The notes beneath the pieces were generated by a model. The model saw nothing but the letters and a program-made list of their open reading frames with translations. It did not search any database and was not told where the DNA came from. Shown here in pieces: positions 8,009-32,255 of a stretch of DNA of 33,885 nt (position 1 is the stretch's first letter; every line of letters begins with the position of its first letter). The DNA comes from Pseudomonadota bacterium (GTDB lineage Bacteria > Pseudomonadota > Gammaproteobacteria > Acidiferrobacterales > Acidiferrobacteraceae), in assembly GCA_021841585.1 (NCBI GenBank), contig JAKBUS010000026.1, positions 1 to 33,885 on the forward strand. The letters are read 5' to 3'. Both the position numbers and the translations under genes were made by a program.

Positions 8009-8038
8009 GCGGGGGCGGGGTGAGCGTGGCGTGGTTTC

Positions 8039-8896: not shown

Positions 8897-8912
8897 CGGT
8901 CGAGGAGGGGTG

Positions 8913-12465: not shown

Positions 12466-13320
12466 GTGTCGGGGGCGCCTCGCCGGCTGATCGTCACCGC
12501 CGACGATTTTGGGCTGTCGCCGGCGGTCAATGAGGCGGTCTTGCGCGCCGCGCGCGAGGGGATCTTGACGTGCGCAAGCCTCATGGTCGGCGAGGAGGCG
12601 GCGGACGATGCCGTGGCGCGCGCGCGCCGTCTGCCCTCGTTGCGCGTGGGCCTGCATGTGGTGGTGGCGGACGGCCGGCCGGTGCTGCCCCCGGAACGCA
12701 TCCCCGCCTTGTGCGATCGCCATGGCCGCCTGGATGGCCGGCTGGTGCGTGCCGGAGTGCGGTTTTTCTTCCGGCCATCGGTGGCGCGCCAACTGGAAGA
12801 CGAGATCGCGGCGCAGTTCGCCGCGTTCGCCCGGACCGGCCTTCCTTTGGACCACGTCAATGCCCACAAGCACATGCACCTCCACCCGACGGTCTTGGGG
12901 CTGATCTTGAAGATCGGCCGACGCTACGGGATGCGTGCGGTCAGGCTCCCCTATGAGCCGCCGGTGGCGGTGCGCTCGGCGGGCGGGGCATGGCGCTATG
13001 GCAAGACCATGGGTGTGGTCGGGCTGTGGGCGGGGCTCATGCGCTGGCGGCTTAACCGCGCGGGCCTTGTGCATAACGACAGGGTCCTTGGGCTCCTGGA
13101 ATCCGGGGGCCTGGATGAGGTGGCGGTGCTGGCGCTCCTGCGGCGGCTTCCGCCGGGGGTGACCGAGCTCTACTGTCATCCGGCCACAAGCGATGGGGCC
13201 GCATCGCGCGCCTTGGGCTATCGGCAGGCCGATGAATTGGCGGCCTTGATGAGCGCCGAGGTGGCACGCGCCCTGCGGGAAGGCGGCATCATGAAAGTCG
13301 CCTTCGGCGATCTCGCTTAA
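12466..13320 (+). CDS. hpnK: Hopanoid deacetylase HpnK (YdjC/ChbG family)
   Basis: HpnK removes the acetyl group from BHT-N-acetylglucosamine. The 284-residue protein belongs to the YdjC/ChbG carbohydrate deacetylase family. It has the metal-binding TADDFGLS at 11-18, GLHV with His64, and the histidine-rich HVNAHKHMHLHP at 130-141. The start is a GTG directly abutting the TAA of hpnJ, with no separate ribosome binding site obvious, so translation is probably coupled. The end is 16 bases before hpnN. Together hpnI, hpnJ and hpnK predict that this organism can make glucosaminyl-BHT and BHT cyclitol ether. Confidence 0.93.
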   Translation: MSGAPRRLIVTADDFGLSPAVNEAVLRAAREGILTCASLMVGEEAADDAVARARRLPSLRVGLHVVVADGRPVLPPERIPALCDRHGRLDGRLVRAGVRFFFRPSVARQLEDEIAAQFAAFARTGLPLDHVNAHKHMHLHPTVLGLILKIGRRYGMRAVRLPYEPPVAVRSAGGAWRYGKTMGVVGLWAGLMRWRLNRAGLVHNDRVLGLLESGGLDEVAVLALLRRLPPGVTELYCHPATSDGAASRALGYRQADELAALMSAEVARALREGGIMKVAFGDLA

Positions 13321-13336: not shown

Positions 13337-16003
13337 ATGCGCGACAAGCGCCACAAAGGCAGCATCGACCGGCTCGACCGCGGATATTACGGGGCCCTCA
13401 TCGGTTTGGCCGATTTCTCGCGGCGCCGTGCGTGGTGGGTACTGATCTTCGCGGTCACGCTGAGCCTGGGCTCGCTCGCCTACACGATCACGCATTTTGC
13501 CATCAGCACGGATATGAGCAAGATGCTGTCCCAGGATCTGCCCTTCGAGCGCGCCCAAGAGCGCTTCAACAAGGCCTTCCCGGGGCTCAGCAAGACCTTG
13601 CTTGTGGTCATCCACAGCGACTCGCAGGCGCTCTCGCGCCGCGGCGCCGAGCGCCTGACGCGCTGGCTCAGGCGTCATGGCCAGGGCATTACGCAGGTCA
13701 GCCAGCCCGACGGTGGCCGGTTCTTCGCGCGCGAGGGGTTGTTGTATCTGTCCCAGAAGGCGCTCTGGCGCCTGTCCGATCAGTTGTCGCGGGCGCAGCC
13801 GTTCATGGCAACGCTCGCCGCGCACCCGACCCTGCCGCGCTTCACCTCGCTCCTCAATACCGCGCTCGCGCGCGCGCGCACCTCGGGCAGCGCGCTGCCG
13901 GGCCTTGTGACGGTGCTCGACGGATGGCGTAAGACCCTGCAGGGCCAGGAGCAGGGCCGATATGTGGTGATGCCGTGGGGGAGCCTCATGGGGGTCGCCG
14001 CGCCCGGCGGCGGCACGGCCGGCGACAGTTTCGTGGTGGTAAAGCCCCGTTACGACTACAAGGGGGGCGCGCCGGTCCGTATTGCGTTGCGCAGCGTACG
14101 AGCCGGGGCCCAGGCCCTCGGGCTCGATGCCGCGCATGGCGTCACCGTGCGCATAACCGGATCGGCAGCGCTCGACAATGATCAGGTCAAGACCGTGTCG
14201 CAGAGCGCGGGTCTCGCCACCGGCCTGTCGCTTACCCTGGTACTGGTCATGCTGGTCCTGGGTTTGCGCCGTCCACGCTACGTGGCGATCATCCTCGCGA
14301 CCCTTTTTATGGGTTTGACCTGGACTGCGGCCTTCGCGCTTGTCGCCACCGGGCCCATGAACCTGATCTCGGTGGCGTTTGCGGTGCTGTTCGTGGGGCT
14401 CGGGGTCGATTTCGGGATCCAGTTCTGCATCCGCTATCAGGAGGAGGGCGCGCACGGCGACAACGGCCAGGCGATCTGCGCCACAGCGCGCGGCGTCGGC
14501 AGCGCGCTGAGTCTCGCGGCGGTGGCCGCCGCCATCAGCTTCTACTCCTTCGTGCCGACGAGTTACGCGGGCATTGTCGATCTTGGTATCATTTCCGGCA
14601 CCGGCATGTTCTTTGCGCTCATCGCCAATCTGACCGTGACCCCGGCGCTGCTCACGATCTTCGTCAATGGGAATGCGCAGGGGCGGCCGCGCGGCCGTCT
14701 GCGCGGCCTATTGGCGCGCATCCCGGTGGCGCGCCACCCGCGCGCGATCGTCGTCGGCGCCACGGTGATCGCCGTCGGGCTCGTCCCCATGATCCTCGCG
14801 AGCCGTTTCGACTTCGACCCCATGCATCTCCAGGACCCACATAGCGAGGCGGTGTCGACCTTCGAGTCTCTGCTCAAAAACAGCCGCATCTCGCCCTATC
14901 CCATCGATATCCTGGAGCCCAACCTCCACGCCGCCCAGCACATGGCCGCGCGCCTTACACGCCTGAAGACCGTGGGACGCGTGCTCACGGCTGCGAGTTT
15001 CATTCCCAGCCACCAGAGCGCCAAGCTCGCGGTGATCGCGCAAATGGCCATGGTCGTGCCGCCGTTTTCGATCCATCCTCATCGCGCGCGGCCGCCGTCG
15101 GCGTCGCGCATTCGCGCCTCCCTGCTTGGGCTTCGCCAAGGCCTGAAGGCCTTCGCCGCCGCCCGTGTCCATGGGCGCACGGTCCACGCGGCCCGCGCCC
15201 TGGATGCCGCCCTGGGCTCGTATCTGGCGCGCTTCGGGCATGATCAGGCCGCCCTTCTGGCATTGCAGCGGCGCGTCATCGGGACCCTGCCCTGGCAGCT
15301 TGCAAGCCTCCAGAAGGCGCTAAATGCGCGCCCCGTAACCCTGCGCACCTTGCCCGCCTCCCTGCGCCAGCAATTCATCAGCGCCGATGGGCGCGCGCGG
15401 GTCGAGGTCTTTTCCTCGCTCGATCTCAACCACAATCGGAATATCGCGCGATTTGCCCGTGACGTGGCGCGCGTGGCCCCGGATGCGGTGGGCCCGCCGG
15501 TGTTGCTCGTGCAGGGCGGGCGCGCGGTGGTGAGTGCCTTCAAGGAGGCCACCGCGATCTCCTTTGTGTTGATCACCGTGGTCCTGCTACTGACCTTGCG
15601 GAGCGTGGCCGATGCCTTGACGATCCTGGCCCCGCTAGTATTGGCGGCCATGGCCGCGGTGTCCGTGATGTGGGTGTTCGGCATCTCATTCAATCTCGCC
15701 AATATCATCGTGCTGCCGCTGCTCATAGGTCTGAGCGTGGCGTTTAGCATCTACCTCGTGGTGCGCTGGCGGCGCGGGGTCGGGACCGCGCTCTTGCTCG
15801 ACACCAGCACCTCGGAGGCCGTGGTGTTCAGCGCGCTTACCACCATGAGTTCATTTGGAAGTCTCGCGGTGTCGTCCAATCCGGGGATGGCGGTCCTCGG
15901 GGAGACCTTGTTTATCGCCATGGGCGCGGCGCTCGTTACGATCCTGCTGGTGCTGCCCGCCATCCTGAGCCTGCGGCAGGCCCCCGATGGGCAACATGCC
16001 TGA
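13337..16003 (+). CDS. hpnN: RND-family hopanoid transporter HpnN
   Basis: HpnN is an inner-membrane RND transporter shown in Rhodopseudomonas palustris and Burkholderia to move hopanoids to the outer membrane. The 888-residue protein has two MMPL-type halves. Each has one membrane helix (about 35-53 in the first), a large periplasmic loop, then a bundle of five helices. The first bundle carries GLGVDFGIQFCIRYQEEG with Asp358. The equivalent segment in the second bundle, GLSVAFSIYLVVRWRRG, has Ala802 where proton-relay RND proteins often have Asp. GAAAGAGAAA precedes the ATG. Its end overlaps the start of the first hpnL copy by 17 bases. Confidence 0.93.
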   Translation: MRDKRHKGSIDRLDRGYYGALIGLADFSRRRAWWVLIFAVTLSLGSLAYTITHFAISTDMSKMLSQDLPFERAQERFNKAFPGLSKTLLVVIHSDSQALSRRGAERLTRWLRRHGQGITQVSQPDGGRFFAREGLLYLSQKALWRLSDQLSRAQPFMATLAAHPTLPRFTSLLNTALARARTSGSALPGLVTVLDGWRKTLQGQEQGRYVVMPWGSLMGVAAPGGGTAGDSFVVVKPRYDYKGGAPVRIALRSVRAGAQALGLDAAHGVTVRITGSAALDNDQVKTVSQSAGLATGLSLTLVLVMLVLGLRRPRYVAIILATLFMGLTWTAAFALVATGPMNLISVAFAVLFVGLGVDFGIQFCIRYQEEGAHGDNGQAICATARGVGSALSLAAVAAAISFYSFVPTSYAGIVDLGIISGTGMFFALIANLTVTPALLTIFVNGNAQGRPRGRLRGLLARIPVARHPRAIVVGATVIAVGLVPMILASRFDFDPMHLQDPHSEAVSTFESLLKNSRISPYPIDILEPNLHAAQHMAARLTRLKTVGRVLTAASFIPSHQSAKLAVIAQMAMVVPPFSIHPHRARPPSASRIRASLLGLRQGLKAFAAARVHGRTVHAARALDAALGSYLARFGHDQAALLALQRRVIGTLPWQLASLQKALNARPVTLRTLPASLRQQFISADGRARVEVFSSLDLNHNRNIARFARDVARVAPDAVGPPVLLVQGGRAVVSAFKEATAISFVLITVVLLLTLRSVADALTILAPLVLAAMAAVSVMWVFGISFNLANIIVLPLLIGLSVAFSIYLVVRWRRGVGTALLLDTSTSEAVVFSALTTMSSFGSLAVSSNPGMAVLGETLFIAMGAALVTILLVLPAILSLRQAPDGQHA

Positions 16004-17030
16004 CGTCCGCCGCGCGCCCGCCCAACGCCCGTGGACCGCGGGGGTGTTGGGGATCATGGCGGCCTGCGGCATCGCGCTTACGGCGTGGCTCCTGGAACGC
16101 CTGGGCTGGACGCCGGTCGCGGCGTTTCTGGCGCGCGCGGGCTTCGGCCTCCTGTGGCTCATCCCTTTGCGTTTCGTGGTGGCCGCCACCGAGGTGCGGG
16201 GATGGGGTGCGTTGCTCGGGATCCGGCGGCGTATCCCTTGGCTTTTGCTGCTGTGGCTTGCCATGGTGCGCGATGCCGTCAATACCTTCCTTCCGGTGGC
16301 GCGCGTGGGCGGCGAGCTCGTCGCCATCCGCCTCTTGCGTCTGCGCGGCGTGAACACCAGCACGGCCTCGGCGAGCGTGATCGTCGAGACCAGCGTCACC
16401 CTGGCCCTACAGATCGTCATTACGCTCTGCGGCATCGCCCTGCTACTCCCCGTGACGGGTATCCACGCGTCCTTGCCGGCCTTATTGGGCGGTATCGCGC
16501 TGGCGGCCGTCGTGGTGGCGGTATTCGTGGCGGTTCAGGTGCGCATCGGCCTTGCCGAATTTGCCGACCGCACGCTCGGGCGCGCGCTGCGCGCAGTCGG
16601 CGGCCGGGGGCTGCCGCTGGTCCCAGGCCTCGACCGCAAGGTCATGAGCCTGTATCGGCACCGTATGGTGTTGGCGCGCTGCGCGCTCTGGCAGCTCATG
16701 GGTTTTGCCGGGGGCGCGGCCGAGATCGCGTTGCTCGCGGTGCTGATGCACATCCCGCTCACGCTGGTTCAGGTATTCGTGTTCGAGGCCCTGATCCAGG
16801 CCATCCATAGCGTGGCGTTCGTGGTCCCCGGGGCCCTCGGGGTCCAGGAAGGCGGCTTTGTCGGGCTTGCCATGTTGCTCGGGGTCCCGCCCGATGCGGC
16901 GTTCAGTCTCGCGCTCGGACGGCGGTTGCGTCAGCTGGCCATCGGATTTCCTGTACTCCTGTCCTGGCAATGGCATGAGTGGCGCATTCGGCGCCTTTCG
17001 TCCGCGCAGGCGGCGCCGACCAGCGGTTAG
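15987..17030 (+). CDS. hpnL: HpnL-like integral membrane protein, copy 1
   Basis: This 347-residue protein with about seven or eight membrane helices belongs to the lysylphosphatidylglycerol synthase transmembrane/flippase-like family and matches its hopanoid branch, HpnL. The function is unknown; lipid flipping is a common guess. Recognisable segments are MVRDAVNTFLPVARVGGELVAIRLL, SVIVETSVTLALQ, FEALIQAIHSVAFVVPGALGVQEGG and RRLRQLAIGFPVLLSWQW. The ATG at 15987 lies inside the end of hpnN; a second ATG three codons later is possible. A gap of 119 bases follows before the squalene synthase gene. A clear paralogue lies at 20929-21948. Confidence 0.88.
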   Translation: MGNMPDVRRAPAQRPWTAGVLGIMAACGIALTAWLLERLGWTPVAAFLARAGFGLLWLIPLRFVVAATEVRGWGALLGIRRRIPWLLLLWLAMVRDAVNTFLPVARVGGELVAIRLLRLRGVNTSTASASVIVETSVTLALQIVITLCGIALLLPVTGIHASLPALLGGIALAAVVVAVFVAVQVRIGLAEFADRTLGRALRAVGGRGLPLVPGLDRKVMSLYRHRMVLARCALWQLMGFAGGAAEIALLAVLMHIPLTLVQVFVFEALIQAIHSVAFVVPGALGVQEGGFVGLAMLLGVPPDAAFSLALGRRLRQLAIGFPVLLSWQWHEWRIRRLSSAQAAPTSG

Positions 17031-17043
17031 GGGCGCCAAGCGA

Positions 17044-17073
17044 GTTCAAGAAGATTACACTTTATGTTAAGGT
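17044..17073 (+). promoter_or_regulatory. Possible internal promoter ahead of squalene synthase
   Basis: An AT-richer patch in an otherwise GC-rich gap reads TTCAAG at 17045-17050, 17 bases, then TAAGGT at 17068-17073. The TAAGGT box also occurs in the weak promoter reading ahead of ispH. The match to consensus is poor, but this 119-base gap is the largest one between ispH and hpnG, so an internal promoter here is reasonable. Confidence 0.25.
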
Positions 17074-17149
17074 GCCGACCGCGAGCGCCGAGCGCGCCGG
17101 GCCGCAGCTTGCAGATCGACCAACCGAAGACGCATCAGGGAAAAGGGAT

Positions 17150-18211
17150 ATGTCCGTATCGGCAATAGATGCGACAGTAGTGAGGGAGGACGCCGACGAC
17201 GAGCGCTTCCAGGCGGCCATGTTGCAGGACGTGTCACGGACCTTCGCACTAACCATACCCGAGCTTCCACGGGCCCTGCGCGCCGTGGTCGGCAACGGCT
17301 ATCTGTTGTGCCGTATCGTCGATACCATCGAAGACGATCCAGATCTCGGTAGCGCCCAGAAGCGCCAGTTGTGCACGTTCTTTGCCCAGGTCGTGGCGCG
17401 CCGCGCCGACCCAAGAGAGTTTGCGCGCGGCCTCGACGCGGTCCTGGCCCCCGAAGTGCCACCCGCCGAGCGTCTGCTCGTGCGCGAGACCGAGCGCGTG
17501 ATTGCGATCGGCAACACCTTCACGGCTACGCAGCGCAAGGCGCTCGAGACCTGTGTGGCGATCATGGCCGACGGCATGGCGGAATTTCAGGAGCGCAAGG
17601 ATCCGGCGGGCCTGCCGACCTTGGCGGACATGGACCGCTATTGCTATTACGTCGCCGGGGTCGTGGGCGAGATGCTCACGCGCCTGTTCTGCGAGTACTG
17701 TCCGGAGATGCGGCGTCATGAGGACCGCCTTATGGCGCTCGCGGTTTCATTTGGGCAGACTCTCCAGATGACCAACATCCTGAAGGACATTTGGGAGGAC
17801 CATAGGCGGGGCGCCTGCTGGTTGCCTCGCGACGTGTTTGCGCGTCACGGGTTTGCGCTCGCCGATCTCGACAGGGGGCCTGGCGATGAGGGCTTCGGCC
17901 GCGCCCTTGGCGAACTCGTCGATGTGGCGCGCGCCCATGCGCGCGGCGCGCTCGAGTATGTCTTGTTGATCCCGCGCAAGGAGGCAGGCCTGCGGAATTT
18001 CTGCTTGTGGGCGCTGGGCATGGCTGTCCTGACGCTGCGCAAGATCGATCGCCGGCGGAATTTCTCCAGCGGTCAGGACGTGAAAATCACGCGCCGCAGC
18101 GTCAAGGCGACGGTCGCGGTGAGCCGCCTGTCTGCTGGTCATGACCGGCTTTTGCGTCTCTTGTTCGCGCTTTTGGCGGGCGCGCCGCGGCCGTTGCCGC
18201 GCGGCGTCTGA
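17150..18211 (+). CDS. Squalene synthase, eukaryote-like type
   Basis: The 353-residue protein is a head-to-head prenyl transferase of the squalene/phytoene synthase family, expected to make squalene from two farnesyl diphosphates. The Mg-binding aspartate-rich motifs are DTIEDD at 58-63 and DIWED at 213-217. Its texture resembles eukaryotic squalene synthase rather than HpnC or HpnD: SRTFALTIPELP near the start, YLLCRIVDTIEDD, YCYYVAGVVGEMLTRLF, and MTNILKDIWED. It lacks the C-terminal membrane anchor of the eukaryotic enzyme. The ATG at 17150 follows AGGGAAAAGGG; an in-frame extension overlaps hpnL and is not believed. No HpnE-like oxidoreductase is present. Presqualene synthase (HpnD) is the alternative reading. 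Confidence 0.87.
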   Translation: MSVSAIDATVVREDADDERFQAAMLQDVSRTFALTIPELPRALRAVVGNGYLLCRIVDTIEDDPDLGSAQKRQLCTFFAQVVARRADPREFARGLDAVLAPEVPPAERLLVRETERVIAIGNTFTATQRKALETCVAIMADGMAEFQERKDPAGLPTLADMDRYCYYVAGVVGEMLTRLFCEYCPEMRRHEDRLMALAVSFGQTLQMTNILKDIWEDHRRGACWLPRDVFARHGFALADLDRGPGDEGFGRALGELVDVARAHARGALEYVLLIPRKEAGLRNFCLWALGMAVLTLRKIDRRRNFSSGQDVKITRRSVKATVAVSRLSAGHDRLLRLLFALLAGAPRPLPRGV

Positions 18212-18244
18212 CGAAACGCGTCTTTGCCCGAGGAAGCACGTGGT

Positions 18245-20188
18245 ATGAAGAGTCAGGGTGGTTCGGCAAAGAGCCGCGAGAGCCGCGAGTCATTGGTGCA
18301 CGATGCGGAGGCGGCGTTTCTCGACGCGGCGCTTGCGCAGGCGCGCGACCGCATTCTCGCCGAACAAGCCCCGGAGGGCTACTGGTGCTGGCCGCTCGAG
18401 GCCGACTGCACCATCCCGTCCGAATACATCCTCATGATGCATTTCATGGACGAGATCGACGGCGCGCTGGAGGTGAAGCTCGCGCGTTATATCCGCGCCC
18501 GGCAGATGGCCGACGGTGGATGGCCGCTCTACCATGACGGCCGTTTCGACATGAGCGCGTCGGTGAAGGCCTATTACGCCCTGAAGCTCGTCGGTGATGA
18601 CGTCAAGGCGCCCCATATGGCAAAGGCGCGCGCGCTCATCCTCGAGCGCGGGGGCGCGGCGCGCGCCAATGTGTTTACGCGCATCGCGTTAGCGCAGTTC
18701 GGGCAGGTCCCGTGGCGCGCGATCCCGTTCATGCCCGTCGAACTCGTGATGGCCCCGAAGTGGTTCCCGATCACGCTCGCCAAGGTCTCGTATTGGTCGC
18801 GCACGGTCATGGTGCCCTTGCTCGGGCTCTGCAGCCTCAAGGTCCGCGCGCGTAACCCGCGTGGTATCGGCATATCCGAACTTTTCGTGCGGCCCGCTGA
18901 CGAGGAGCACAATTACTTCCCGGTCCGGTCGTTCATGAATTACGCCTTGTGCAAGCTAGAGCGCATCGGATTCCGGCTCGAGGGCGTGATTCCGCGGTGG
19001 CTGCGGGCCCATGCCCTCGATCGTGCCGAGGCGTGGATCATAGAGCGCTTGAACGGGACCGGGGGGCTCGGGGCGATCTTTCCGGCGATGGTGAATGCCT
19101 ACGAATTCCTCGCCGTGCGCGGCTACGCGCCCGAACATCCCTATCGGCGCGACGCCCTGATCGCCATCCAGAAACTCTTGCTTGTGGGCGACACCGAGGC
19201 CTATTGCCAGCCGTGCGTGTCGCCGATCTGGGATACCGGGCTTGTGTGTCTGGCGCTCATGGAGGTCGATCGCGAAGGCACCCAGGACGCGGTGGCGCGC
19301 GGGTTGTCGTGGATGCGTGACCGTCAGCTGCTGGATGCCCCCGGGGATTGGCGCGACAGCAGGCCGAATCTGCCTGGCGGCGGTTGGCCCTTCCAGTTCG
19401 AGAACGGTCATTATCCGGACCTGGACGACACCAGTGTCGTGGCCTGGGCCATGGAGGATTTCCGTGACCCGGCGTTCAATGAGTCGATCCGGCGCGCCGC
19501 CGAATGGGTGGTGGGCATGCAGTCGCGCAATGGGGGCTTTGCCTCGTTCGATGTCGACAATACCCATTATTATCTGAATGAGATCCCGTTCGCGGATCAT
19601 GGCGCCTTGCTCGATCCCCCGACGAGCGATGTCACGGCGCGGTGCGTCACCCTACTGTCGCGGGCGGCGAATGATGGGCGCTATCGCGAGGCGATAGACC
19701 GGGCCGTTGCCTATCTGCGTTCCGAACAGGAGGGGTATGGCGCGTGGTTCGGCCGCTGGGGGACCAACTATATCTATGGAACATGGTCGGTGCTGGTGGG
19801 CCTGCGCGCCGCCGGCATCGCCAGCGATGACCCGGCGGTACGCGCCGCGGTGCGGTGGCTCATGTCCATTCAACACGCCGATGGCGGCTGGGGCGAGAGC
19901 AACGACAGTTATCACGAACCGGAGACCGCCGGGATCGGCGCCCGCAGCACCGCGTTTCAGACGGCGTGGGCGGTCTTGGCGCTGATCGTGGCCGAGGAGG
20001 TCGACAGCGAGGCGGTGCGCCGCGGCGTGCGTTACCTCCTGGCCCATCGCGAACCCGGCGGGTTGTGGGAGGACGTGGAGTTCACCGCCCCCGGTTTCCC
20101 ACGGGTTTTTTATCTCAAGTACCATGGGTACGCCCGGTATTTCCCGCTGTGGGCCTTGGCGTGCTACCGCAATCGGGCCGCCCGCTAG
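18245..20188 (+). CDS. shc: Squalene-hopene cyclase
   Basis: Squalene-hopene cyclase (also called HpnF) turns squalene into hopene and hopanol at the inner face of the cytoplasmic membrane. The 647-residue product has the catalytic aspartate motif DLDDT at 392-396 (usually DVDDTA; Leu and Ser replace Val and Ala here). It also has repeated QW-type segments, for example EGYWCWPLEAD near the start, DGGWPLY, NGGFASFD, YGAWFGRWG, DGGWGESNDSY and PGGLWEDVEF. The second ATG-type start (18245) is preceded by GAGGAAG nine bases upstream; a TTG 21 bases earlier is less likely. hpnG overlaps its last 28 bases. Confidence 0.97.
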   Translation: MKSQGGSAKSRESRESLVHDAEAAFLDAALAQARDRILAEQAPEGYWCWPLEADCTIPSEYILMMHFMDEIDGALEVKLARYIRARQMADGGWPLYHDGRFDMSASVKAYYALKLVGDDVKAPHMAKARALILERGGAARANVFTRIALAQFGQVPWRAIPFMPVELVMAPKWFPITLAKVSYWSRTVMVPLLGLCSLKVRARNPRGIGISELFVRPADEEHNYFPVRSFMNYALCKLERIGFRLEGVIPRWLRAHALDRAEAWIIERLNGTGGLGAIFPAMVNAYEFLAVRGYAPEHPYRRDALIAIQKLLLVGDTEAYCQPCVSPIWDTGLVCLALMEVDREGTQDAVARGLSWMRDRQLLDAPGDWRDSRPNLPGGGWPFQFENGHYPDLDDTSVVAWAMEDFRDPAFNESIRRAAEWVVGMQSRNGGFASFDVDNTHYYLNEIPFADHGALLDPPTSDVTARCVTLLSRAANDGRYREAIDRAVAYLRSEQEGYGAWFGRWGTNYIYGTWSVLVGLRAAGIASDDPAVRAAVRWLMSIQHADGGWGESNDSYHEPETAGIGARSTAFQTAWAVLALIVAEEVDSEAVRRGVRYLLAHREPGGLWEDVEFTAPGFPRVFYLKYHGYARYFPLWALACYRNRAAR

Positions 20189-20910
20189 AGGCCCCTTACG
20201 GCTTTGTCGTGGCGCTGGCCGCCGAGGCCCGCGCCTTCGGCCGGCCCGTGACCCTGGGCCGACCCCGGGCGCTTCATGCCGGGCAGTGGCTGGGGGTGTC
20301 GGGGATGGGCGCGGAGCGCGCCCGGCACATGGCACGCGATCTCATATCCCGCGGGGCGCGGGGGCTCGTGAGTTTCGGTACCTGCGCGGGTCTGGCCCCG
20401 GGCCTGGCCGCCGGCACACTAGTCTTGCCGCGCGCGGTGTGCGACGAACACGGCGCGTCCTACGAGGCGCCGTGGCCGCCGGCGCTCATCGAGGCCTTGC
20501 CTGCGGGTGTGCCCATCGATGTCCTGGTGTCGGTATCGCGGCCAGTGGGTGGCGTGGCCGACAAGGCTGACCTCTTGCACCGTTACGGGGCGTGGGCCGC
20601 CGACATGGAGAGCGCCGCGCTGGCGCATGAGGCGCGCGAGCACGGCCTGCCGTTTTTGGCCGTGCGTGTGGTCGTGGATCCCTTCGATGCGCCGGTCCCG
20701 GAGGGGCTCATGCGCGGGCTCGACGCCTGGGGGCGGCCGCGTGTGGGCGCGTTGCTCGCGGCGCTCGGCATCGACGCGCGGCAGTGGCGCGCGCTTTTGC
20801 GTCTCGGCCGCGATTTTGCCAAGGCGCGGCCGACCTTGGCGCACGCCGCCGGCGTGCTGACCGGCCGGTGCCCCACCGCTGGCGCCTCAGCCGGCAAAGC
20901 GGAAGGCTGA
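20161..20910 (+). CDS. hpnG: Adenosylhopane nucleosidase/phosphorylase HpnG
   Basis: HpnG releases adenine from adenosylhopane to yield ribosylhopane or its phosphate, which is then reduced to bacteriohopanetetrol. The 249-residue protein is of the purine nucleoside phosphorylase/MTA-SAH nucleosidase fold. It shows VVALAAEARAFGRP near the start, SGMGAERARHMA, SFGTCAGLAPGLAAGTLVLP, and the ribose-binding DMESAALAHEA. The start is uncertain: GTG 20161, 28 bases inside shc, gives a natural N-terminus, while GTG 20209 is shorter. No clear ribosome binding site is seen for either. Any longer reading frame to the left only overlaps shc. It directly follows shc and precedes the second hpnL copy. Confidence 0.9.
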   Translation: MLPQSGRPLEAPYGFVVALAAEARAFGRPVTLGRPRALHAGQWLGVSGMGAERARHMARDLISRGARGLVSFGTCAGLAPGLAAGTLVLPRAVCDEHGASYEAPWPPALIEALPAGVPIDVLVSVSRPVGGVADKADLLHRYGAWAADMESAALAHEAREHGLPFLAVRVVVDPFDAPVPEGLMRGLDAWGRPRVGALLAALGIDARQWRALLRLGRDFAKARPTLAHAAGVLTGRCPTAGASAGKAEG

Positions 20911-20928: not shown

Positions 20929-21948
20929 ATGAGTGACGCGCCGCGCAGGGCGCGAGGGCGCGCGTGGCTGCGTGTCGTGCCCATCGTAGCCGGCTTGGCG
21001 GGATTTGCCGGCGCGGCATTGCTGTTCGCGCGCCATCACCCGGCACGCATCCTCAATCTCGTAGCCTTCGCCGGATTCGGCATGCTCTGGCTCGTGCCGG
21101 TGCGCATTGCCGTCCTGACCATGAACGCGCAGGGCTGGCGCGCGCTCTTTCCCCGTGGTCAAGAGGCGTCCCTGGCGCTTTTGACCTGGCTTGCCTTTGT
21201 GCGCAATGCCGTCAATACGCTGCTGCCGGTGGCGCATGTGGGCGGCGAGGTGGCGGCCGCGCGCCATCTGGCCAAGCACGGCGTGCCGGCGCCGGTGGCG
21301 ATTGCCGGTATCGTCGTCGAGACCACCGTGACGATCTTCGTGCAGATGGGCTACACGATCCTCGGCATCGGCCTGCTCGTGTCGTACATGGGCGACGCGC
21401 CGCTCATCCAGCGCCTGTTGTGGGGGCTTGTCGTCGCCCTGCCCGTGGGGCTCGCGTTCGTGTTGGTGCAGCGCCGATCACGCCCGTTCGCGCGCCTTCA
21501 GCGCGCGCTTGGCCGCTTGAATCGTAAGCTCGCCGGCGAGGCCACCGACGGCGAGACCGTGGATGACGCGATCATGGCTTTATATCGTCGCGCTGGCGCG
21601 CTCGCCTACTGCGCTCTCTGGCAGGCCTTGAGCCTCGCGGGCGGGGCCGGCGAGTTCTGGGTGATCCTGCACCTGCTCCATCAACACGCCTCGGTACGTC
21701 TAGCGGTACTCCTCGAATCGCTGGTACAGGCCATACAAAGCGCCGCATTCATGGTGCCCGGCACCCTCGGGGTCCAGGAGGGCGGGCTTATCGCCATTGG
21801 CGCCGCCACCGGGCTGTCGCCGGAGACGGCGCTTGCGATCTCGGCGGTGCGCCGCGTGCGCCAGGTCGGGATATCCCTGCCGGTACTCCTGCTGTGGTTG
21901 CGCGCCGGCCGCGCGCCCTCCGCGGACCCCCATTCCCGTCCCGGATAA
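20929..21948 (+). CDS. hpnL: HpnL-like integral membrane protein, copy 2
   Basis: This 339-residue membrane protein is a paralogue of the one at 15987-17030. It shares the order of segments: FVRNAVNTLLPVAHVGGEVAAARHL, GIVVETTVTIFVQ, ESLVQAIQSAAFMVPGTLGVQEGG and RRVRQVGISLPVLLLW. The two differ widely in the first 25 residues and in the middle loop. The ATG is at 20929, 18 bases after the hpnG stop, with a weak ribosome binding site. The function is unknown; a lipid flippase or transport role is inferred from family and context. It is followed by the sulfotransferase after 86 bases. Confidence 0.88.
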   Translation: MSDAPRRARGRAWLRVVPIVAGLAGFAGAALLFARHHPARILNLVAFAGFGMLWLVPVRIAVLTMNAQGWRALFPRGQEASLALLTWLAFVRNAVNTLLPVAHVGGEVAAARHLAKHGVPAPVAIAGIVVETTVTIFVQMGYTILGIGLLVSYMGDAPLIQRLLWGLVVALPVGLAFVLVQRRSRPFARLQRALGRLNRKLAGEATDGETVDDAIMALYRRAGALAYCALWQALSLAGGAGEFWVILHLLHQHASVRLAVLLESLVQAIQSAAFMVPGTLGVQEGGLIAIGAATGLSPETALAISAVRRVRQVGISLPVLLLWLRAGRAPSADPHSRPG

Positions 21949-22034
21949 CGGGAGGTGGATGCGTCGCGCTTCGTGGGCTGGTAGCATCATGGCCCGGTCC
22001 GCGCCGGGACGCGGGACCCATGCGAGGAGATGCA

Positions 22035-23036
22035 ATGACAAAGGTGGTGTGGCCCAACCTCTTTATCGTGGGAGCCGTAAAGAGCGGTACGACGTCGCTT
22101 TATGCCTACTTGAGACAGCATCCGGATATCTTTTTCCCGGAGATGAAGGAGCCCCATTTTTTTGCGCAGCCTGCGCCCGCGCGCGAGCAGCGGCATCTCA
22201 TCACCTTCATCGGCGAGCAGGCGGAGTATCTGCAGCTCTATGAGCGCAGCGGCGATCGCCGCTGGCGGGGGGATGCCAGTCCCTCCTATCTCTGGAGCGC
22301 GTCGGCGGCCGCGCGTATCGCCAAGGTATCGCCCGATGCGCGCATCATCATCATCCTGCGCGATCCGATCGAGCGCGCCTATGCGCAGTACCTGATGGAT
22401 TATTCGGAGGGCGCGATCGACCGGCCGTTTTTCGAGGCCTTGCGTCGCGACTGGGAGCGTCCGGACAAGGGCTGGGGGGTGTCGCAGCTCTATGTCGAAT
22501 TGGGTCTCTATACCGCACAGATTCAGCGCTACCGCGCGCTCTTCGGGGGCGACCGGGTGCTGGTGCTGTTGCTCGAGGATTTGAAGAAGGACGCGCGCGG
22601 CGTGCTTACCCGCATCGCGCGCTTTCTCGACGTTCCCGAGGGGCCCATGGCGATGGTCGACACGGCCGAGGCTCATAACCACTACAAGCGGCCCAAGGGC
22701 CAGTGGGCGCGATGGCTTGCCGGGCACCCCGTGAGCCGCTTCTTGGGGGAGCGCGTCATGCCGCGGCGCTTAGGTGAGTACATATGGGAGCATTGGATGC
22801 AGAAGGATGCGCCTAAGCCGCCGATCGATCCGCGGGCCGTGGCCTACCTTCAGCCGATCTATGCGCCGGAGCTCGTGGCGCTCGAGGCCGAACTGGGGCG
22901 TCCGTTGCCGGAGCTTCGGCGTAGCTGGGCTGCCGCGCCGCACCCGGCGTCCCCGCCGGTTTCCGCCGCCGTGCCCACCCATCGATCCGTGGACGTCGTG
23001 AAGCAGGTCCACACGGAAGGCGCGATCGACCACTAG
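22035..23036 (+). CDS. PAPS-dependent sulfotransferase
   Basis: The 333-residue protein is a sulfotransferase of the heparan-sulfate/lipid type, which moves sulfate from PAPS to a hydroxyl or amine. The 5'-phosphosulfate loop is FIVGAVKSGTTSLYAYLRQHP at 10-30, with Lys16 and Thr19-Thr20. The 3'-phosphate motif RDPIERAYAQY begins at Arg109; the usual Ser of this motif is Ala117. The C-terminal tail (about 295-333) is Ala/Pro-rich and looks unstructured. The start at 22035 follows CGAGGAG and gives a normal family N-terminus; the longer frame overlaps hpnL. It is the last gene of the hopanoid run, on the same strand. A hopanoid or other sugar-lipid acceptor is inference. Confidence 0.88.
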   Translation: MTKVVWPNLFIVGAVKSGTTSLYAYLRQHPDIFFPEMKEPHFFAQPAPAREQRHLITFIGEQAEYLQLYERSGDRRWRGDASPSYLWSASAAARIAKVSPDARIIIILRDPIERAYAQYLMDYSEGAIDRPFFEALRRDWERPDKGWGVSQLYVELGLYTAQIQRYRALFGGDRVLVLLLEDLKKDARGVLTRIARFLDVPEGPMAMVDTAEAHNHYKRPKGQWARWLAGHPVSRFLGERVMPRRLGEYIWEHWMQKDAPKPPIDPRAVAYLQPIYAPELVALEAELGRPLPELRRSWAAAPHPASPPVSAAVPTHRSVDVVKQVHTEGAIDH

Positions 23037-23194
23037 CCTCGCGTCCGATACCGGGCGCCGGGGGTCGTTTTAAGGGTCCGCCGCCCGTGAATCGCGCGTG
23101 GTCATGGCGATCGCGCGCACCTCTCGCGCGTCGCCACATCCCACCCGCGTACCCATGCGCGCCGCCAGCCGTCATGGGTTTTAAGCGCGACCCG

Positions 23195-24103
23195 TCAGCA
23201 GACCTGCTCGATCAATAGCCAATGACCATCCTCATCCCGCACCATGGCGGCATCGGCGACGCGCCGGAACGGGGCCTGCTGGTGTGCTGCGGGGCGCTGT
23301 TCGAGCGCCGCGAGATCGGCGGTTTCTAGTACGGTGCGTGTCGCGGCGATGTCGGTGGTGGCGAGCGCCCGCCGACGGCCGCGCGGTTGTTCGTAGGCGA
23401 GCAGCTCGAGATGCGGCCCCGGGGGCGCGGCGAGGAGCGTTACCACGCGCACCCGCGCACCCGGCAGGTCATCAAGGCGTTCCTGCTCGAGGCCTATATT
23501 GGTGTGTTGGGTGCCGGGGCTAAGGCCGAGGGCGCCTTCATAGAAGGCCATCGCGCGACGGCAATCGCTCACACTCAAGGCCGTATGGTCGATGGCGTGA
23601 CCCCATGCCGGGGGCGATCCGGGTGTTTGCAAAGGCGCGGGCGGCGGGCTGTCCGCCGGCGCCAGAAGTTCAAGGGGGTGGCCATCGGGATCGCGAAACT
23701 TGTAGGCGGTCACGCCGCCGCTCGCGGACGGCAATTTCTGCGGTCCTTGGCGCGTGATCGGTCGTCCACCACAGTCCGTGACACGATGCGCGAGTGCCGC
23801 GATATCGTGGCAGGTGATGGCGAAGTGCTGAAACCAGAGGTCGTTGGCGCGGCTGTCGGCGGGATAGGGCGCGGATGACGCGAGGAATCGCGACAGCTCA
23901 AGCCGCGTGTCGCCGAGTGCCATGGTGAGCGATTCGAACGGACCCCCGAGGAGCGCGGCGCGCTCACGCGTCGCCGGGCGCACCGCGCCAAGGGGCGTAA
24001 AGCCGAGCGCGTGCTGATAGAAGGCCGCGGCGCGGCCCATGTCGCGCACGTTTAGCGCAATCCGCGCGATGCGTATGCCAGGCCCAGGCGGCATACCGGT
24101 CAT
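23195..24103 (-). CDS. Double-domain VOC (glyoxalase/dioxygenase-fold) protein
   Basis: The 302-residue protein has two vicinal-oxygen-chelate (VOC) domains, at about 10-145 and 165-300. The first opens with IRIARIALNVRDMGRAAAFYQHAL and closes with YKFRDPDGHPLELL. The second opens with IDHTALSVSDCRRAMAFYEGAL and closes with MVRDEDGHWLLIEQ. The first domain lacks the usual N-terminal His ligand (Ala in IALNVRD), while the second keeps it. The family includes glyoxalases, ring-cleaving dioxygenases and antibiotic-binding proteins; the activity here cannot be told. The ATG at 24103 overlaps the stop of the SMP-30 gene by four bases, and a longer frame to the left only overlaps that gene. It is the last gene of the five-gene operon. 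Confidence 0.82.
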   Translation of the reverse strand: MTGMPPGPGIRIARIALNVRDMGRAAAFYQHALGFTPLGAVRPATRERAALLGGPFESLTMALGDTRLELSRFLASSAPYPADSRANDLWFQHFAITCHDIAALAHRVTDCGGRPITRQGPQKLPSASGGVTAYKFRDPDGHPLELLAPADSPPPAPLQTPGSPPAWGHAIDHTALSVSDCRRAMAFYEGALGLSPGTQHTNIGLEQERLDDLPGARVRVVTLLAAPPGPHLELLAYEQPRGRRRALATTDIAATRTVLETADLAALEQRPAAHQQAPFRRVADAAMVRDEDGHWLLIEQVC

Positions 24104-25005
24104 GGCCGCACCGCCCCGCGGCGGTTCACATAGATACTCAAAAGCGTCTGTCCGGCGCACAGGAACAGGCGGCTGCGCTCGCGCCCGCCGAAGGCCAGAT
24201 TCGATACCGGGGTATCCGTCAGGATCTTGCCAAGCAAGGCGCCCTGCGGATTCAGGCAATGGACCCCGTCGCCGGCGCTCGTCCAGACGTTCCCGTCCTC
24301 GTCGCAACGCAGGCCATCGGCGCCGCCCGGCACCACCTCGTGGAATACCGTGGTCGCGCCCAGGCGCGTGCCATTCCCGGCGAGGACGGTGCGGCGAATA
24401 TGCCGTACCGGATCGGCGGCGAACTGCTGACCGGTCTCCACGAGATAGAGGATGCGCTCATCCGGCGAAAAGCATAGGCCGTTCGGGCCCTCGAGGTCGT
24501 CGGCGACGACCTCGAGGGCGGCGCGCGCCGGGTCGAGACGGTAGACCGCGGGCGGCCCCTCCGAGACCTGCCTGCCACCCTCGTAATCGGTGTTGATGCC
24601 ATACAGTGGGTCTGTAAACCATATCGAGCCGTCGCTTTTCACGACTACGTCGTTTGGGGCGTTGAGGCGCCGTCCCTGATAGTGGCTGGCCAATACCGTG
24701 ATCTGGCCATCCCACTCGGTGCGTGTCACGCAGCGGTTATGATGCGAGCAGCTGATGAGGCGCCCCTCGCGATCGCGCGCATGGCCGTTCTCGAAACCAC
24801 ATGGCGACCGAAACACGCTGATGCCGCCCGTCTCCGACCAGCGCAGGACGCGGTCATTGGGTATGTCGCTAAACACGAGGCAGTCGTGATCGGCGAACCA
24901 CACCGGCCCCTCGAGCCAGCGAAAGCCCGTGCCCAGGGTCTCGAGCGCGGCATTGGGAAGCACGAAGGATCGAAACGAGGGATCTATGAGTTCGTAGGGG
25001 GCCAT
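24100..25005 (-). CDS. SMP-30/gluconolactonase family lactonase
   Basis: The 301-residue protein is a six-bladed beta-propeller of the SMP-30/gluconolactonase/LRE family, which hydrolyses sugar lactones using a divalent metal. Seen features are the metal Glu32 in FRWLEGPVWF, GFENGHARDREGRLI at 70-83, the NAPNDVVVKSDGSIWFTDP block (Asn115, Asn118-Asp119), EGPNGLCFSPDE, and GGADGLRCDEDGNVW. There is no signal peptide, so it is probably cytoplasmic. The ATG at 25005 follows the cupin stop by four bases; an upstream start overlaps the cupin gene. Its operon partner, a GMC oxidoreductase, could supply the lactone substrate. Confidence 0.9.
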   Translation of the reverse strand: MAPYELIDPSFRSFVLPNAALETLGTGFRWLEGPVWFADHDCLVFSDIPNDRVLRWSETGGISVFRSPCGFENGHARDREGRLISCSHHNRCVTRTEWDGQITVLASHYQGRRLNAPNDVVVKSDGSIWFTDPLYGINTDYEGGRQVSEGPPAVYRLDPARAALEVVADDLEGPNGLCFSPDERILYLVETGQQFAADPVRHIRRTVLAGNGTRLGATTVFHEVVPGGADGLRCDEDGNVWTSAGDGVHCLNPQGALLGKILTDTPVSNLAFGGRERSRLFLCAGQTLLSIYVNRRGAVRP

Positions 25006-28410: not shown

Positions 28411-28436
28411 GGCACGCTCATTTGCAGGGAATGCCC

Positions 28437-29456
28437 ATGCCATTGCATAAAGGACGCCACCTTCGGCCGCTTTGGCTTGCGGCCGTCGCGTTTTTGACCG
28501 GATGCGCGCAGAAAGGCTATTGGCTCGCGCACCCCAAGGGCGCGATAGCGCGCACCGAGTGGCATACCACCATTTTGGATGTCGCGGTCATGGGGAGCGT
28601 GGTACTCGTGGCCGGCGGCTTGGTGGCGGCCTTTTTATGGCGATACAGGGTTGGGGGCAAGTCTCGGAGCTATGACCCCACGTTCACGGCGTCGCTTGTC
28701 ATAGAGGTGCTGGTGTGGGGCGTACCGCTCATGATCGTGGGGTACCTATCGTATTTTTCGGTAAAGAGCGTGTTTGCCACGAACCCCTACAATCCGCTCG
28801 CGGTGCGCCGAGCCGTGGCCCGCGAGGCGCGCATGAATGGGGCCTTCACGCGCCGCGCCGATCCGGCCGGGGTCAACGCTATAGATCCCGCGGCCCATCC
28901 CATGCGCCCCTTGCGCGTCGATGTCGTGACCACCGACTGGCAATGGGTCTTCATTTATCCAAAACAGGGGATCGCGACCGTTGATGAACTCGTGGTTCCG
29001 GTCCGCGTTCCGGTGAAATTTGATCTCACGTCCACGACTGTGGTGAACGACTTTTTTATCCCACAGCTCGTGGGCGAGATCGACATCATGCCGGGGATGC
29101 GCACCAAGCAAGGCATGATCGCGAGCCGTACCGGCAGCTACCACGGCTATTCCGATGACTTCAGCGGTGGCGGGTTTTCGTGGATGGGCTTCGCTACGCG
29201 CGTGACGAGACCTGCGCACTTCAAGGACTGGGTGCGGCGCGTTCAGAGCGCCAAAGATCATTTGACCGATACGCGTTTCACGCGCGTGGCCCAGCCGACC
29301 ATAAATCTCGCACAAAAGATTCGGCATTTTTCCCATGTCCAAAAGGGGCTTTTCGATCATATCATCGAACAGGTCATGGAGGGGCGGGTCTATCGAACGC
29401 CGTTGGCTATGACAGAAAGCATGACCAAGCCTATGAAGGTGCGGTTGATCAAGTAA
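28437..29456 (+). CDS. cyoA: Quinol oxidase subunit II (CyoA-like)
   Basis: This is subunit II of a bo-type terminal quinol oxidase, a 339-residue lipoprotein with a periplasmic cupredoxin domain. The lipobox LTGC gives the lipidated Cys22 if the start is ATG 28437, which is six bases after AGGGA (ATG 28431 is close to it). Two membrane helices follow at about 42-62 and 86-108, then the cupredoxin fold with DWQWVFIYP, TSTTVVNDFFIPQLVGEIDIMPGMRTKQG and DDFSGGGFSWMGF. No CuA ligand set (Cys-x3-Cys) is present, so it is quinol rather than cytochrome c oxidising. It is first in the cyoABC operon, 16 bases ahead of cyoB. Confidence 0.94.
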   Translation: MPLHKGRHLRPLWLAAVAFLTGCAQKGYWLAHPKGAIARTEWHTTILDVAVMGSVVLVAGGLVAAFLWRYRVGGKSRSYDPTFTASLVIEVLVWGVPLMIVGYLSYFSVKSVFATNPYNPLAVRRAVAREARMNGAFTRRADPAGVNAIDPAAHPMRPLRVDVVTTDWQWVFIYPKQGIATVDELVVPVRVPVKFDLTSTTVVNDFFIPQLVGEIDIMPGMRTKQGMIASRTGSYHGYSDDFSGGGFSWMGFATRVTRPAHFKDWVRRVQSAKDHLTDTRFTRVAQPTINLAQKIRHFSHVQKGLFDHIIEQVMEGRVYRTPLAMTESMTKPMKVRLIK

Positions 29457-29472
29457 GCTAAAGGAGCGTTGG

Positions 29473-31581
29473 ATGCTCGTTCATTATCCGGGTCCATGGA
29501 GCCCGCTCCTCGGGCGGCTCGCCCTGAAAGAAATCCCCTACCAGAATCCGATCCTTGTCTGGACCTTCGTGTTGGTGAGCTGCGCGGCGCTCGCGATTTT
29601 CGCGGCGATCACCTACCACAGGGCATGGGGCTACCTTTGGCGAGAATGGCTAACGTCCGTCGATCACAAAAAGATCGGCGTCATGTACTGCCTCGTGGGG
29701 CTTGTGATGTTCTTCCGCGGCTTTATCGACGGCGTCATGATGCGTACCCAGCAGGTCATGGCCGTGGGGCCGCAATCACCCGGTTACCTCGGGGCCTTGC
29801 ATGGTTACCTGCCGCCGTACCATTTCGGGCAGATTTATAGCGCGCATGGCACCATCATGATCCTGTTTGCGATCACGCCGATCCTGATCGGGATCATGAA
29901 TATCGTGGTGCCCTTGCAGGTCGGTGCGCGCGACATGGCCTACCCGTACCTGAACGCGGTATCGTTTTGGCTTACGGCATCGGCCACCGCTCTTGTCATG
30001 ATCTCGCTTTTCGTAGGCGACTTTTCCCATGCCGGATGGGTGGGCCTAAGCCCGCTTACCGAGCTTGCCTACAGCCCGGGCGTGGGGGTCGACTACTGGA
30101 TATGGGCGGTGCAGATCGGAAGTGTCGGCACGACGCTCGCCTCGATCAATATCATCATGACCATCATCAAGCTGCGCGCGCCGGGCATGACATGGACGCG
30201 CATGCCCATATTCTGCTGGACCGCGCTTAGTACGAGTGTCGTGGGCCTCAGTTCCTTTCCGGTGTTCACGGCGGCGGTGGCGCTTTTGAGTCTCGACCGC
30301 TATGCCGGGACGCACTTTTTCACGCCAGGCCTCGGCGGCAACCTGATGCTCTACACCGACCTCTTTTGGATATGGGGCCACCCCGAGGTGTACTACGTCA
30401 TATTGCCGGCCTTCGGCATCATATCGGAGATCGTGCCAACCTTTTCCGAGAAGCCGCTTTTTGGTTACATGACCATGGCCGCGGCGAGCATCGCTATCGG
30501 GGGCGTTTCGTGGTCTGTCTGGTTGCATCACTTCTTTACCATGGGGGCAGGCCCTGGAGTGAACTCGTTTTTTAGTATCGCGAGCATGCTTGTAGGCATT
30601 CCCACGGGGGTAAAGGTCTTCAATTGGGCATTCACCTTGTACCGCGGACGCATACGCTTCGATCTCCCCATGCTGTGGGCGCTGGGCGCCCTGGTACTGC
30701 TCCTCACCGGCGGCCTTAGCGGCATGATGCTTGCCATGCCGGCGATCAACTACACGGTCCATAACAGCGTCTTTGTCGTGGCGCACTTTCACAACATGCT
30801 AAACGTCGTGGGATTCGCGGCCATAGGGGGCATCAACTTCTGGTTCCCCAAGGTGTTTGGCTTCAAGTTGGACGAGCGCATCGGGAAGCGCGCTTTCTGG
30901 TTTTTTAGCGCCGGCACGGTGGTGTTGTTCGGCTCCATGTACGCGCTGGGGTTCATGGGCATGCCGCGACGCATCGACTACATCCCGTTCGTGTCATGGC
31001 GACCGCTTCTGATGAGCGAGGAGGCCGGCATATTTCTGTTTCTGATTGCGGCCTATTACATGATAAAGCAGATGTATGTCAGTATCCGCGACCGCGCGCA
31101 ACACCGCGTGACGGGCCCGGACCCCTGGCGGACGGCGCGTAGCCTCGAGTGGCTGACGCATTGCCCTGTACCGTTTTATAACTTCGCGCTTCTGCCTCAC
31201 ATAAACAGCCGTGATGAGTGGGCGTGGCGGCGCCAAAACGGGCTTGTAAACCTGCGCCCCGACCATTACGAAGACATCCATCTCCCCAACAACACCTTTG
31301 TTCCCATGCTGCTTGGGGCGCTGGCCTTCGGCCTTGGGTTTGGCATGGTATGGCGCATGTATTGGTTGGCGGGCTTAAGCCTCCTTGGCATCGTCGTGGC
31401 GGTGATCGCACGGTCTTTCGAGCCGGATTCCGGGCATACCATTCCCGGGGTCCGGATCCGCGAGATCGAGGAGACCCTTCCCGAGGAGCTAGACGGGATG
31501 GAGCCGGTTGCGGATGTGGCGGGCGGGGTGGTGGCCTTTCAGGCCCGCACAGCCCCGCGCGCCCCGGCGCAAGAGCCCTAA
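29473..31581 (+). CDS. cyoB: Quinol oxidase subunit I (CyoB-like)
   Basis: The 702-residue catalytic subunit of the bo-type oxidase reduces oxygen to water and pumps protons. Haem and copper ligands are seen: His125 (SAHG), His303 and Tyr307 (WGHPEVYY), His352-His353 (LHHFFTMG), His438 and His440 (VAHFH). The quinol-site residues Arg82, Asp86, His117 and Gln120 correspond to those of the E. coli enzyme, and Lys381 (PTGVKVFNW) matches its K-channel lysine. About 15 membrane helices are expected. AAAGGAG precedes the ATG. The final 90 or so residues hold the usual cytoplasmic extension plus an Ala/Pro-rich tail. The gene is complete. Confidence 0.96.
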   Translation: MLVHYPGPWSPLLGRLALKEIPYQNPILVWTFVLVSCAALAIFAAITYHRAWGYLWREWLTSVDHKKIGVMYCLVGLVMFFRGFIDGVMMRTQQVMAVGPQSPGYLGALHGYLPPYHFGQIYSAHGTIMILFAITPILIGIMNIVVPLQVGARDMAYPYLNAVSFWLTASATALVMISLFVGDFSHAGWVGLSPLTELAYSPGVGVDYWIWAVQIGSVGTTLASINIIMTIIKLRAPGMTWTRMPIFCWTALSTSVVGLSSFPVFTAAVALLSLDRYAGTHFFTPGLGGNLMLYTDLFWIWGHPEVYYVILPAFGIISEIVPTFSEKPLFGYMTMAAASIAIGGVSWSVWLHHFFTMGAGPGVNSFFSIASMLVGIPTGVKVFNWAFTLYRGRIRFDLPMLWALGALVLLLTGGLSGMMLAMPAINYTVHNSVFVVAHFHNMLNVVGFAAIGGINFWFPKVFGFKLDERIGKRAFWFFSAGTVVLFGSMYALGFMGMPRRIDYIPFVSWRPLLMSEEAGIFLFLIAAYYMIKQMYVSIRDRAQHRVTGPDPWRTARSLEWLTHCPVPFYNFALLPHINSRDEWAWRRQNGLVNLRPDHYEDIHLPNNTFVPMLLGALAFGLGFGMVWRMYWLAGLSLLGIVVAVIARSFEPDSGHTIPGVRIREIEETLPEELDGMEPVADVAGGVVAFQARTAPRAPAQEP

Positions 31582-31640
31582 AGCCCGGTCCCCGATGGCG
31601 CCCCGCGCATGGTGGGCCACTTAAATATCAAGGAGGTGCC

Positions 31641-32255
31641 GTGAGTCAAGAGGCCTATATCAAACCGGCGCATGCCGTGCTTTGGCAGTCCCACCCCCCG
31701 GGGCACGACGTGATTTCCACGAAAACATTAGGGTTTTGGCTGTACCTTCTCAGTGATTCCATGATCGTGTCGAGCCTGTTTGCGAGCTATCTCGTGTTGA
31801 ATCATCGCGTCAATGCCGCGGCCGGCCCCACCGCCGGCATGGTTGTACACCCCGTGGTAGCATTCTTTGAGACCGTGCTGCTGTTTTCCGGAATCCTCGC
31901 CTATGGTTTTGCGATGGTGGGACTAAAGCGCGGGGACAAAAAGGCGGTCTTGTCTGGGCTTGCCAGCGCCATCATTCTTGCCGTGGGCTTCCTTGTCATC
32001 GAGGGGGTCGATTTCGCGGGACTTGCGGGGCACGGCATGGTGCCCGAGCGCAGCGGATTTCTGTCGGCGTTTTATGCGCTCGTGCTCTATCATGGCGCGC
32101 ACCTCGTCTTCGCCATTTTATGGACGCTGGTAATGATAGTGCAGGTAGCGCGCGAGGGATTTACGGAAAATGTCGTCTACCGGCTCCTGAACCTGAAGTT
32201 GTTCTGGTTTTTTCGTAAGCGCTTCAACAACTACACCCTGCCCCTGATCCCCTAG
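31641..32255 (+). CDS. cyoC: Quinol oxidase subunit III (CyoC-like), C-terminus replaced by IS66
   Basis: This is subunit III of the bo-type oxidase, normally about 205 residues with five membrane helices. GTG 31641 is preceded by a strong AAGGAGGTGCC ribosome binding site. Family segments are GFWLYLLSDSMIVSSLFASYLVL, FFETVLLFSGILAYG, ERSGFLSAFYALVLYHGAHLVFAILW and the start of the last helix, LNLKLFWFF. After Phe191 (codon ending at 32213) the sequence leaves the family pattern and reads 13 residues encoded by the IS66 end, with a stop at 32253-32255. About 18 residues, most of helix 5, are therefore lost. The function of the truncated protein is uncertain. Confidence 0.93.
   Translation: MSQEAYIKPAHAVLWQSHPPGHDVISTKTLGFWLYLLSDSMIVSSLFASYLVLNHRVNAAAGPTAGMVVHPVVAFFETVLLFSGILAYGFAMVGLKRGDKKAVLSGLASAIILAVGFLVIEGVDFAGLAGHGMVPERSGFLSAFYALVLYHGAHLVFAILWTLVMIVQVAREGFTENVVYRLLNLKLFWFFRKRFNNYTLPLIP

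Follow-up and report, generated by a model that had tools for sequence, protein, structure and literature searches.

The hopanoid gene cluster and its terminal gene

The window, by which the whole analysed stretch of 33,885 nucleotides is meant, carries a hopanoid (hpn) gene cluster on the + strand. The genes lie in the order ispH, hpnH, hpnB-like, hpnM, mlaA-like, hpnA, hpnI, hpnJ, hpnK, hpnN, hpnL1, squalene synthase, shc, hpnG and hpnL2, followed by a gene for a predicted sulfotransferase (ST). The features are as follows.

4088-5047, + strand: IspH/LytB (profile)
5076-6185, + strand: HpnH adenosyl-hopene transferase (profile)
6201-7328, + strand: HpnB-like glycosyltransferase (354 bits, just under the cut-off of 379)
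7370-8008, + strand: HpnM, MlaC family (profile)
8039-8896, + strand: MlaA-like lipoprotein (profile)
8862-9917, + strand: HpnA (profile)
9869-11041, + strand: HpnI glycosyltransferase (profile)
11047-12465, + strand: HpnJ radical SAM enzyme (profile)
12466-13320, + strand: HpnK, deacetylase family (profile)
13337-16003, + strand: HpnN hopanoid RND transporter (profile)
15987-17030, + strand: HpnL1 (TIGR03476, 241 bits)
16979-18211, + strand: squalene synthase, single enzyme of SQS_PSY type (TIGR01559 best, under cut-off)
18224-20188, + strand: squalene-hopene cyclase, Shc/HpnF (TIGR01507, 793 bits)
20124-20910, + strand: HpnG-like phosphorylase (TIGR03468, 157 bits, under the cut-off of 187); the true start falls within the open reading frame 19855-20910
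20929-21948, + strand: HpnL2 (PF03706 LPG_synthase_TM; TIGR03476, 264 bits against a cut-off of 195.65), the presumed partner of ST
21949-22034, + strand: hpnL2-ST spacer (86 nt; AGGAG ribosome-binding site; extended -10-like TGnTAnnAT element)
22035-23036, + strand: predicted PAPS-dependent sulfotransferase, ST (333 aa; profile matches, motifs, AlphaFold model)

The genes from ispH to hpnG, including one hpnL, correspond to a canonical hpn cluster, and what sets the window apart is the additional HpnL and the sulfotransferase at the end. The original prediction of a PAPS-type sulfotransferase on the same strand behind the second hpnL, with a gap of 86 nt, was borne out by the coordinates and by matches to PF13469, PF00685 and TIGR03476. 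Its description of this gene as the end of the hopanoid gene run also holds, since the next gene, of glyoxalase type (23195-24307), lies on the - strand and ST therefore closes the + strand run.

In the spacer, the TGnTAnnAT element reads TGGTAGCAT. It recurs in 10 of the 13 longer hpnL2-ST spacers of the window's genus, while the rest of the spacer is variable, and this suggests that ST may possibly (also) be transcribed from a promoter of its own. A scan of 21700-23300 gave no terminator-like site, and RNA hairpin formation in the spacer was no stronger than in shuffled sequences (z -0.24).

Some other features of the window may be mentioned. For the squalene synthase at 16979-18211, TIGR01559 outscores both HpnC and HpnD, and only one such enzyme is present in the cluster. 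The MlaA-like lipoprotein gene directly follows HpnM of the MlaC family (7370-8896), a pair also present in Acidithiobacillus hpn clusters, which suggests a Mla-like route for hopanoids. Further downstream, beyond a GMC oxidoreductase on the - strand, 28422-32255 encodes subunits II, I and III of cytochrome oxidase, one after the other.

The predicted sulfotransferase

The ST open reading frame (22035-23036, + strand) is intact, starts with ATG behind AGGAG and encodes 333 aa. Above the curated thresholds, it matches both PF13469 Sulfotransfer_3 (72.1 bits, 1e-19, cut-off 27) and PF00685 Sulfotransfer_1 (51.9 bits, 9e-14, cut-off 22). The 5'-PSB-like loop AVKSGTTS is formed by residues 14-21 (AVKSGTTSLY), and K16, G18, T19 and T20 of its K-x-G-T-T pattern are invariant in 17/17 orthologues. 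A KEPHFF motif is conserved and includes Glu39, the presumed catalytic base. The roles of these motif residues are taken to be those known from the sulfotransferase fold. The C-terminal ~30 residues are disordered and variable. An APS kinase is encoded in the window's genome, making a supply of PAPS for ST possible.

The 3'-phosphate motif of ST, LRDPIERAYAQYL, contains Ala117. Compared with the pattern R-x-P-x-x-R-x-x-S, R109, P111 and R114 are present and invariant in the 17 orthologues, and the serine is replaced. The motif ILRDPIERAYAQYLM thus has alanine at position 117, where 58 of 94 aligned homologues have serine. The original prediction had pointed out this exchange, which is real but not peculiar to the window's ST, as all 17 family members share this alanine, and so do 17 of the 19 Acidithiobacillaceae loci examined and two unrelated homologues. 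All other PAPS-site and catalytic positions that were checked (K16, G18, T19, E39, R109 and R114) are invariant in the family. Ala117 looks like a lineage change in a protein with otherwise intact PAPS-site residues.

The best match of the AlphaFold model of ST (pLDDT 84.8) was the Alicyclobacillus acidocaldarius protein 3rnl (Z 31.3, 241 residues), followed by heparan sulfate N-deacetylase/N-sulfotransferases and 3-O-sulfotransferases (NDST/3-OST, Z 22-25), TPST (~15) and steroid SULTs (~13). 3rnl resembles ST over its whole length (phmmer 6e-37) and shares the PAPS motifs, the KE-HFF motif and the fold, but is only ~35% identical and has serine at the position of Ala117. Alicyclobacillus acidocaldarius makes hopanoids, and we know of no acceptor for 3rnl. 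NDST and 3-OST share the core fold and the presumed catalytic glutamate with ST, and they transfer sulfate to a glucosamine residue, which the expected HpnI/HpnK product also contains. However, they are eukaryotic, only 21-26% identical, and act on a polysaccharide. The cytosolic steroid sulfotransferases SULT2A1/2B1 share the PAPS fold, and sterols, on which they act, correspond in eukaryotes to the bacterial hopanoids. Their Z is only ~13, however, and their sequence similarity is weak. Steroid SULTs sulfate a ring hydroxyl, and bacteriohopanetetrol has none. The ranking of the fold matches weakly favours a sugar or cyclitol acceptor over a ring hydroxyl.

Conserved position behind HpnL in Acidiferrobacteraceae

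A whole-genome search identified 17 ST carriers in the family, 14 of the window's genus and three of a second genus, each with one close copy (the window's, 13 congeners and three of the second genus). In all 17, an HpnL gene immediately precedes ST, although in genome G017 this HpnL is present only as a fragment on its contig. ST identity across these genomes ranges from 70 to 90%. Median identities to the window's proteins were 80% for ST, 80% for squalene synthase, 83% for HpnN, 69% each for HpnL1 and HpnL2 and 57% for HpnG. The value for ST is thus comparable to those of squalene synthase and HpnN and above those of HpnG and both HpnL proteins, which indicates that ST is under constraint. 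The glyoxalase and SGL genes that follow ST in the window's genus are absent beside ST in the second genus. As the downstream genes differ and the HpnL side is kept, ST goes with the hpn side.

One exception was found in an Acidiferrobacteraceae-like MAG (TL2-1.bin3, L058), which groups with G007 as its sister inside the family tree and carries ST without hpnL upstream, so that the link of ST to hpnL is strong but breakable. In this MAG, ~1 kb of seemingly gene-poor DNA precedes the Acidiferrobacteraceae-type ST (L058:1-2685). When coordinates were compared by eye in 369 genomes, an A1-type ST within 10 kb of shc was found only in two Acidiferrobacter genomes. In G173, an A1-type ST and shc share a contig at a distance of ~150 kb.

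Duplication of HpnL

Two HpnL genes were present in 7/7 ST-bearing Acidiferrobacteraceae genomes tested. A single one was found in G015 of the same family and in 5/5 Acidithiobacillaceae tested, so that among these genomes the duplication is restricted to Acidiferrobacteraceae. In the HpnL tree, HpnL1 and HpnL2 form sister groups (SH-aLRT 98 and 96), and the single HpnL of G015 lies outside both (98). According to this tree, HpnL2 arose by duplication within the family, after G015 had split off and before the two ST-bearing genera separated. No ST orthologue was found in G015, whose hpnG contig ends inside hpnG and whose remaining part of the locus did not turn up; because of this break, the missing ST could not be used as proof of ST gain, and the HpnL tree alone was used. 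The paired history of HpnL2 and ST is the best hint that the two may act together, although the duplication and the arrival of ST may have been separate events. The function of HpnL itself has not been established (PMC12583986).

Orthologues outside the family

An ST orthologue with 55-61% identity is present in 28 of 29 Acidithiobacillaceae genomes. In the loci read, it is located after rlpA, behind dapC-dapD-dapE-rlpA. The Acidithiobacillus hpn clusters read (L192 and L193) contain one HpnL and no ST, in contrast to the two HpnL genes and ST of the window's cluster. Two 'Deltaproteobacteria' MAGs and one Centralia MAG have ST preceded by a flippase-like gene of PF03706 other than HpnL, and in L084 and L085, ST lies upstream of a GNA1162-like lipoprotein gene. 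In a quick tree, all these proteins form one clade with the window's ST against other sulfotransferases, with G176 as the next branch. The clade was found chiefly in genomes from acid sites. In a plasmid collection, all sulfotransferases were <60% identical (~28-33% for the 20 best) and had no hpn link.

Co-occurrence with squalene-hopene cyclase

In Acidithiobacillales, shc was found in 27 of 28 ST carriers, the exception being a genome of 69% completeness, and two outgroup genomes have neither ST nor shc. Acidiferrobacteraceae gave a similar picture (16/17, with the exception 80% complete). All three 'Deltaproteobacteria'/Centralia MAGs carrying ST have shc, as does the sister genome G176, and of the pair L084 and L085 only the genome of L084 does. 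Close ST carriers without shc were the MAGs G017 (80% complete), G474 (69% complete) and G445 (no completeness figure). The class background is 54/369 genomes (~15%), and shc was present in 12/40 genomes with other sulfotransferases matching the profile. The co-occurrence of ST and shc represents about five lineages and is confounded with acidophily and shared ancestry. The converse fails, as many shc genomes, several of them in the same order, lack ST, which places ST outside core hopanoid synthesis.

Proposed function and alternative explanations

The original prediction had raised a possible connection of ST with hopanoids. The link to the cluster is well supported by synteny, HpnL duplication and shc co-occurrence, and the adjacency to hpnL for which a search of other hopanoid clusters had been proposed was present in 17 genomes of two genera, hence not absent in all relatives. 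A hopanoid is a candidate acceptor; the orthologues of Acidithiobacillaceae and the other carriers lie away from hpn, and the L058 copy has no hpnL.

A somewhat less than even chance is given to the reading that ST sulfates the polar head group of a bacteriohopanepolyol in the cytosol and that HpnL2 takes care of what is formed. On this view, the Acidiferrobacteraceae hopanoid cluster would have recruited a soluble cytosolic enzyme that uses PAPS as sulfate donor and modifies a hydroxyl group (or the amine) in the polar head of a bacteriohopanepolyol that the cluster itself produces. Candidate acceptor parts are the side chain made by HpnH/G and the glucosamine or cyclitol head from HpnI/K/J. 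HpnL2, which is polytopic in the membrane and belongs to a family of lipid-handling proteins, might then pass the anionic product through the membrane or across it, and HpnN might receive it from there for export. A strongly acidic sulfate ester would stay charged at pH 1-3 and could thereby provide acidophiles with an anionic hopanoid at their outer surface. Sulfation of the hopanoid head is suggested by the place of ST beside HpnL, the HpnL duplication, the shc co-occurrence, the 3rnl- and NDST-like fold and the APS kinase, and the PF03706 flippase-like gene before ST in the 'Deltaproteobacteria'/Centralia MAGs was also counted in its favour. Against it stand the Acidithiobacillaceae ST outside hpn, L058, the confounded shc test, the shc genomes without ST, the TGnTAnnAT element and the failure to find any sulfated hopanoid in the papers searched.

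The main rival to a hopanoid acceptor is another envelope glycolipid. A serious possibility, if again below even odds, is that ST sulfates some other envelope component, such as an LPS or lipid A sugar, an ornithine- or glycolipid or a polysaccharide; the hpn cluster would then serve as a locus for envelope lipids, and this other lipid may be the one that HpnL2 handles. This would fit the orthologue beside rlpA and away from hpn in nearly all Acidithiobacillaceae, the position before a GNA1162-like lipoprotein gene in L084 and L085, the paralogue of L207, whose neighbours are a further sulfotransferase, a GT25 glycosyltransferase of LPS type and an efflux operon with AcrB, and the origin of the clade mostly from acid-site genomes. 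However, it leaves unexplained why ST has its fixed place at HpnL in both ST-bearing genera and why shc is nearly constant in ST carriers, as opposed to 12/40 for carriers of other sulfotransferases.

The original prediction had also considered that ST might be only a chance neighbour. In this family, this is unlikely in view of the constant gene order in 17 genomes from two genera, the paired HpnL duplication and the shc co-occurrence. A general sulfotransferase, inserted once behind hpnL2 and kept by common descent with no functional tie, would account for all 17 genomes by a single ancestral event, and L058, which demonstrates that ST can live elsewhere, and the putative promoter of ST agree with it. 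It is nevertheless rendered improbable by a gene order kept over two genera despite changed downstream genes and identities down to 70%, by an HpnL duplication that is likewise limited to this part of the family and by the recurrence of PF03706 neighbours in the 'Deltaproteobacteria'/Centralia MAGs.

A loss of ST activity in favour of another role, for which the family-wide replacement of the usual serine by Ala117 might speak, is very improbable and was rejected, because the other PAPS-site residues are invariant, the alanine recurs outside the family and the protein is strongly conserved.

Significance

Hopanoids are bacterial sterol-like membrane lipids. They are the main bacterial molecular fossils and stabilise the membranes of acidophiles. 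No sulfated hopanoid or hopanoid sulfotransferase was found in the open-access literature searched, and a genomic study of Acidithiobacillia that included hopanoids mentioned no sulfotransferase (PMC8886135). The enzyme family and the cluster are each known already; what is unreported is their conserved combination. If hopanoid sulfation is true, sulfated hopanoids would be a new head-group chemistry and give an anionic hopanoid that is charged at pH 1-3. Standard methods that use acetylation or positive mode would easily overlook such a class. Tentatively, and with the odds somewhat against it, sulfated bacteriohopanepolyols may form a new anionic hopanoid class in Acidiferrobacteraceae (perhaps also in Acidithiobacillaceae) that contributes to acid adaptation, with the duplicated HpnL of Acidiferrobacteraceae devoted to moving them. 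The HpnL duplication that accompanies ST offers a handle on HpnL function, and the idea is open to testing in cultured Acidiferrobacter and in many cultured Acidithiobacillus species.

Further sulfotransferase genes

Several Acidithiobacillus have a second, divergent ST. In G449 (L206:7273-11436), this second ST lies near a TPR-sulfotransferase fusion protein of 551 aa. A third, 45% identical copy was found in G458 (L207:5710-14264) together with another sulfotransferase, a GT25 glycosyltransferase of LPS type and an efflux operon (AcrB/HlyD). In G473 of the Acidithiobacillaceae (L209:7624-11223), the ST frame continues into phosphoenolpyruvate synthase, predicting an ST-PpsA fusion of 1199 aa that could be real or an assembly error. 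In a Chitinophagales MAG, six related sulfotransferase matches are arrayed within 10 kb (L088:4148-13835).
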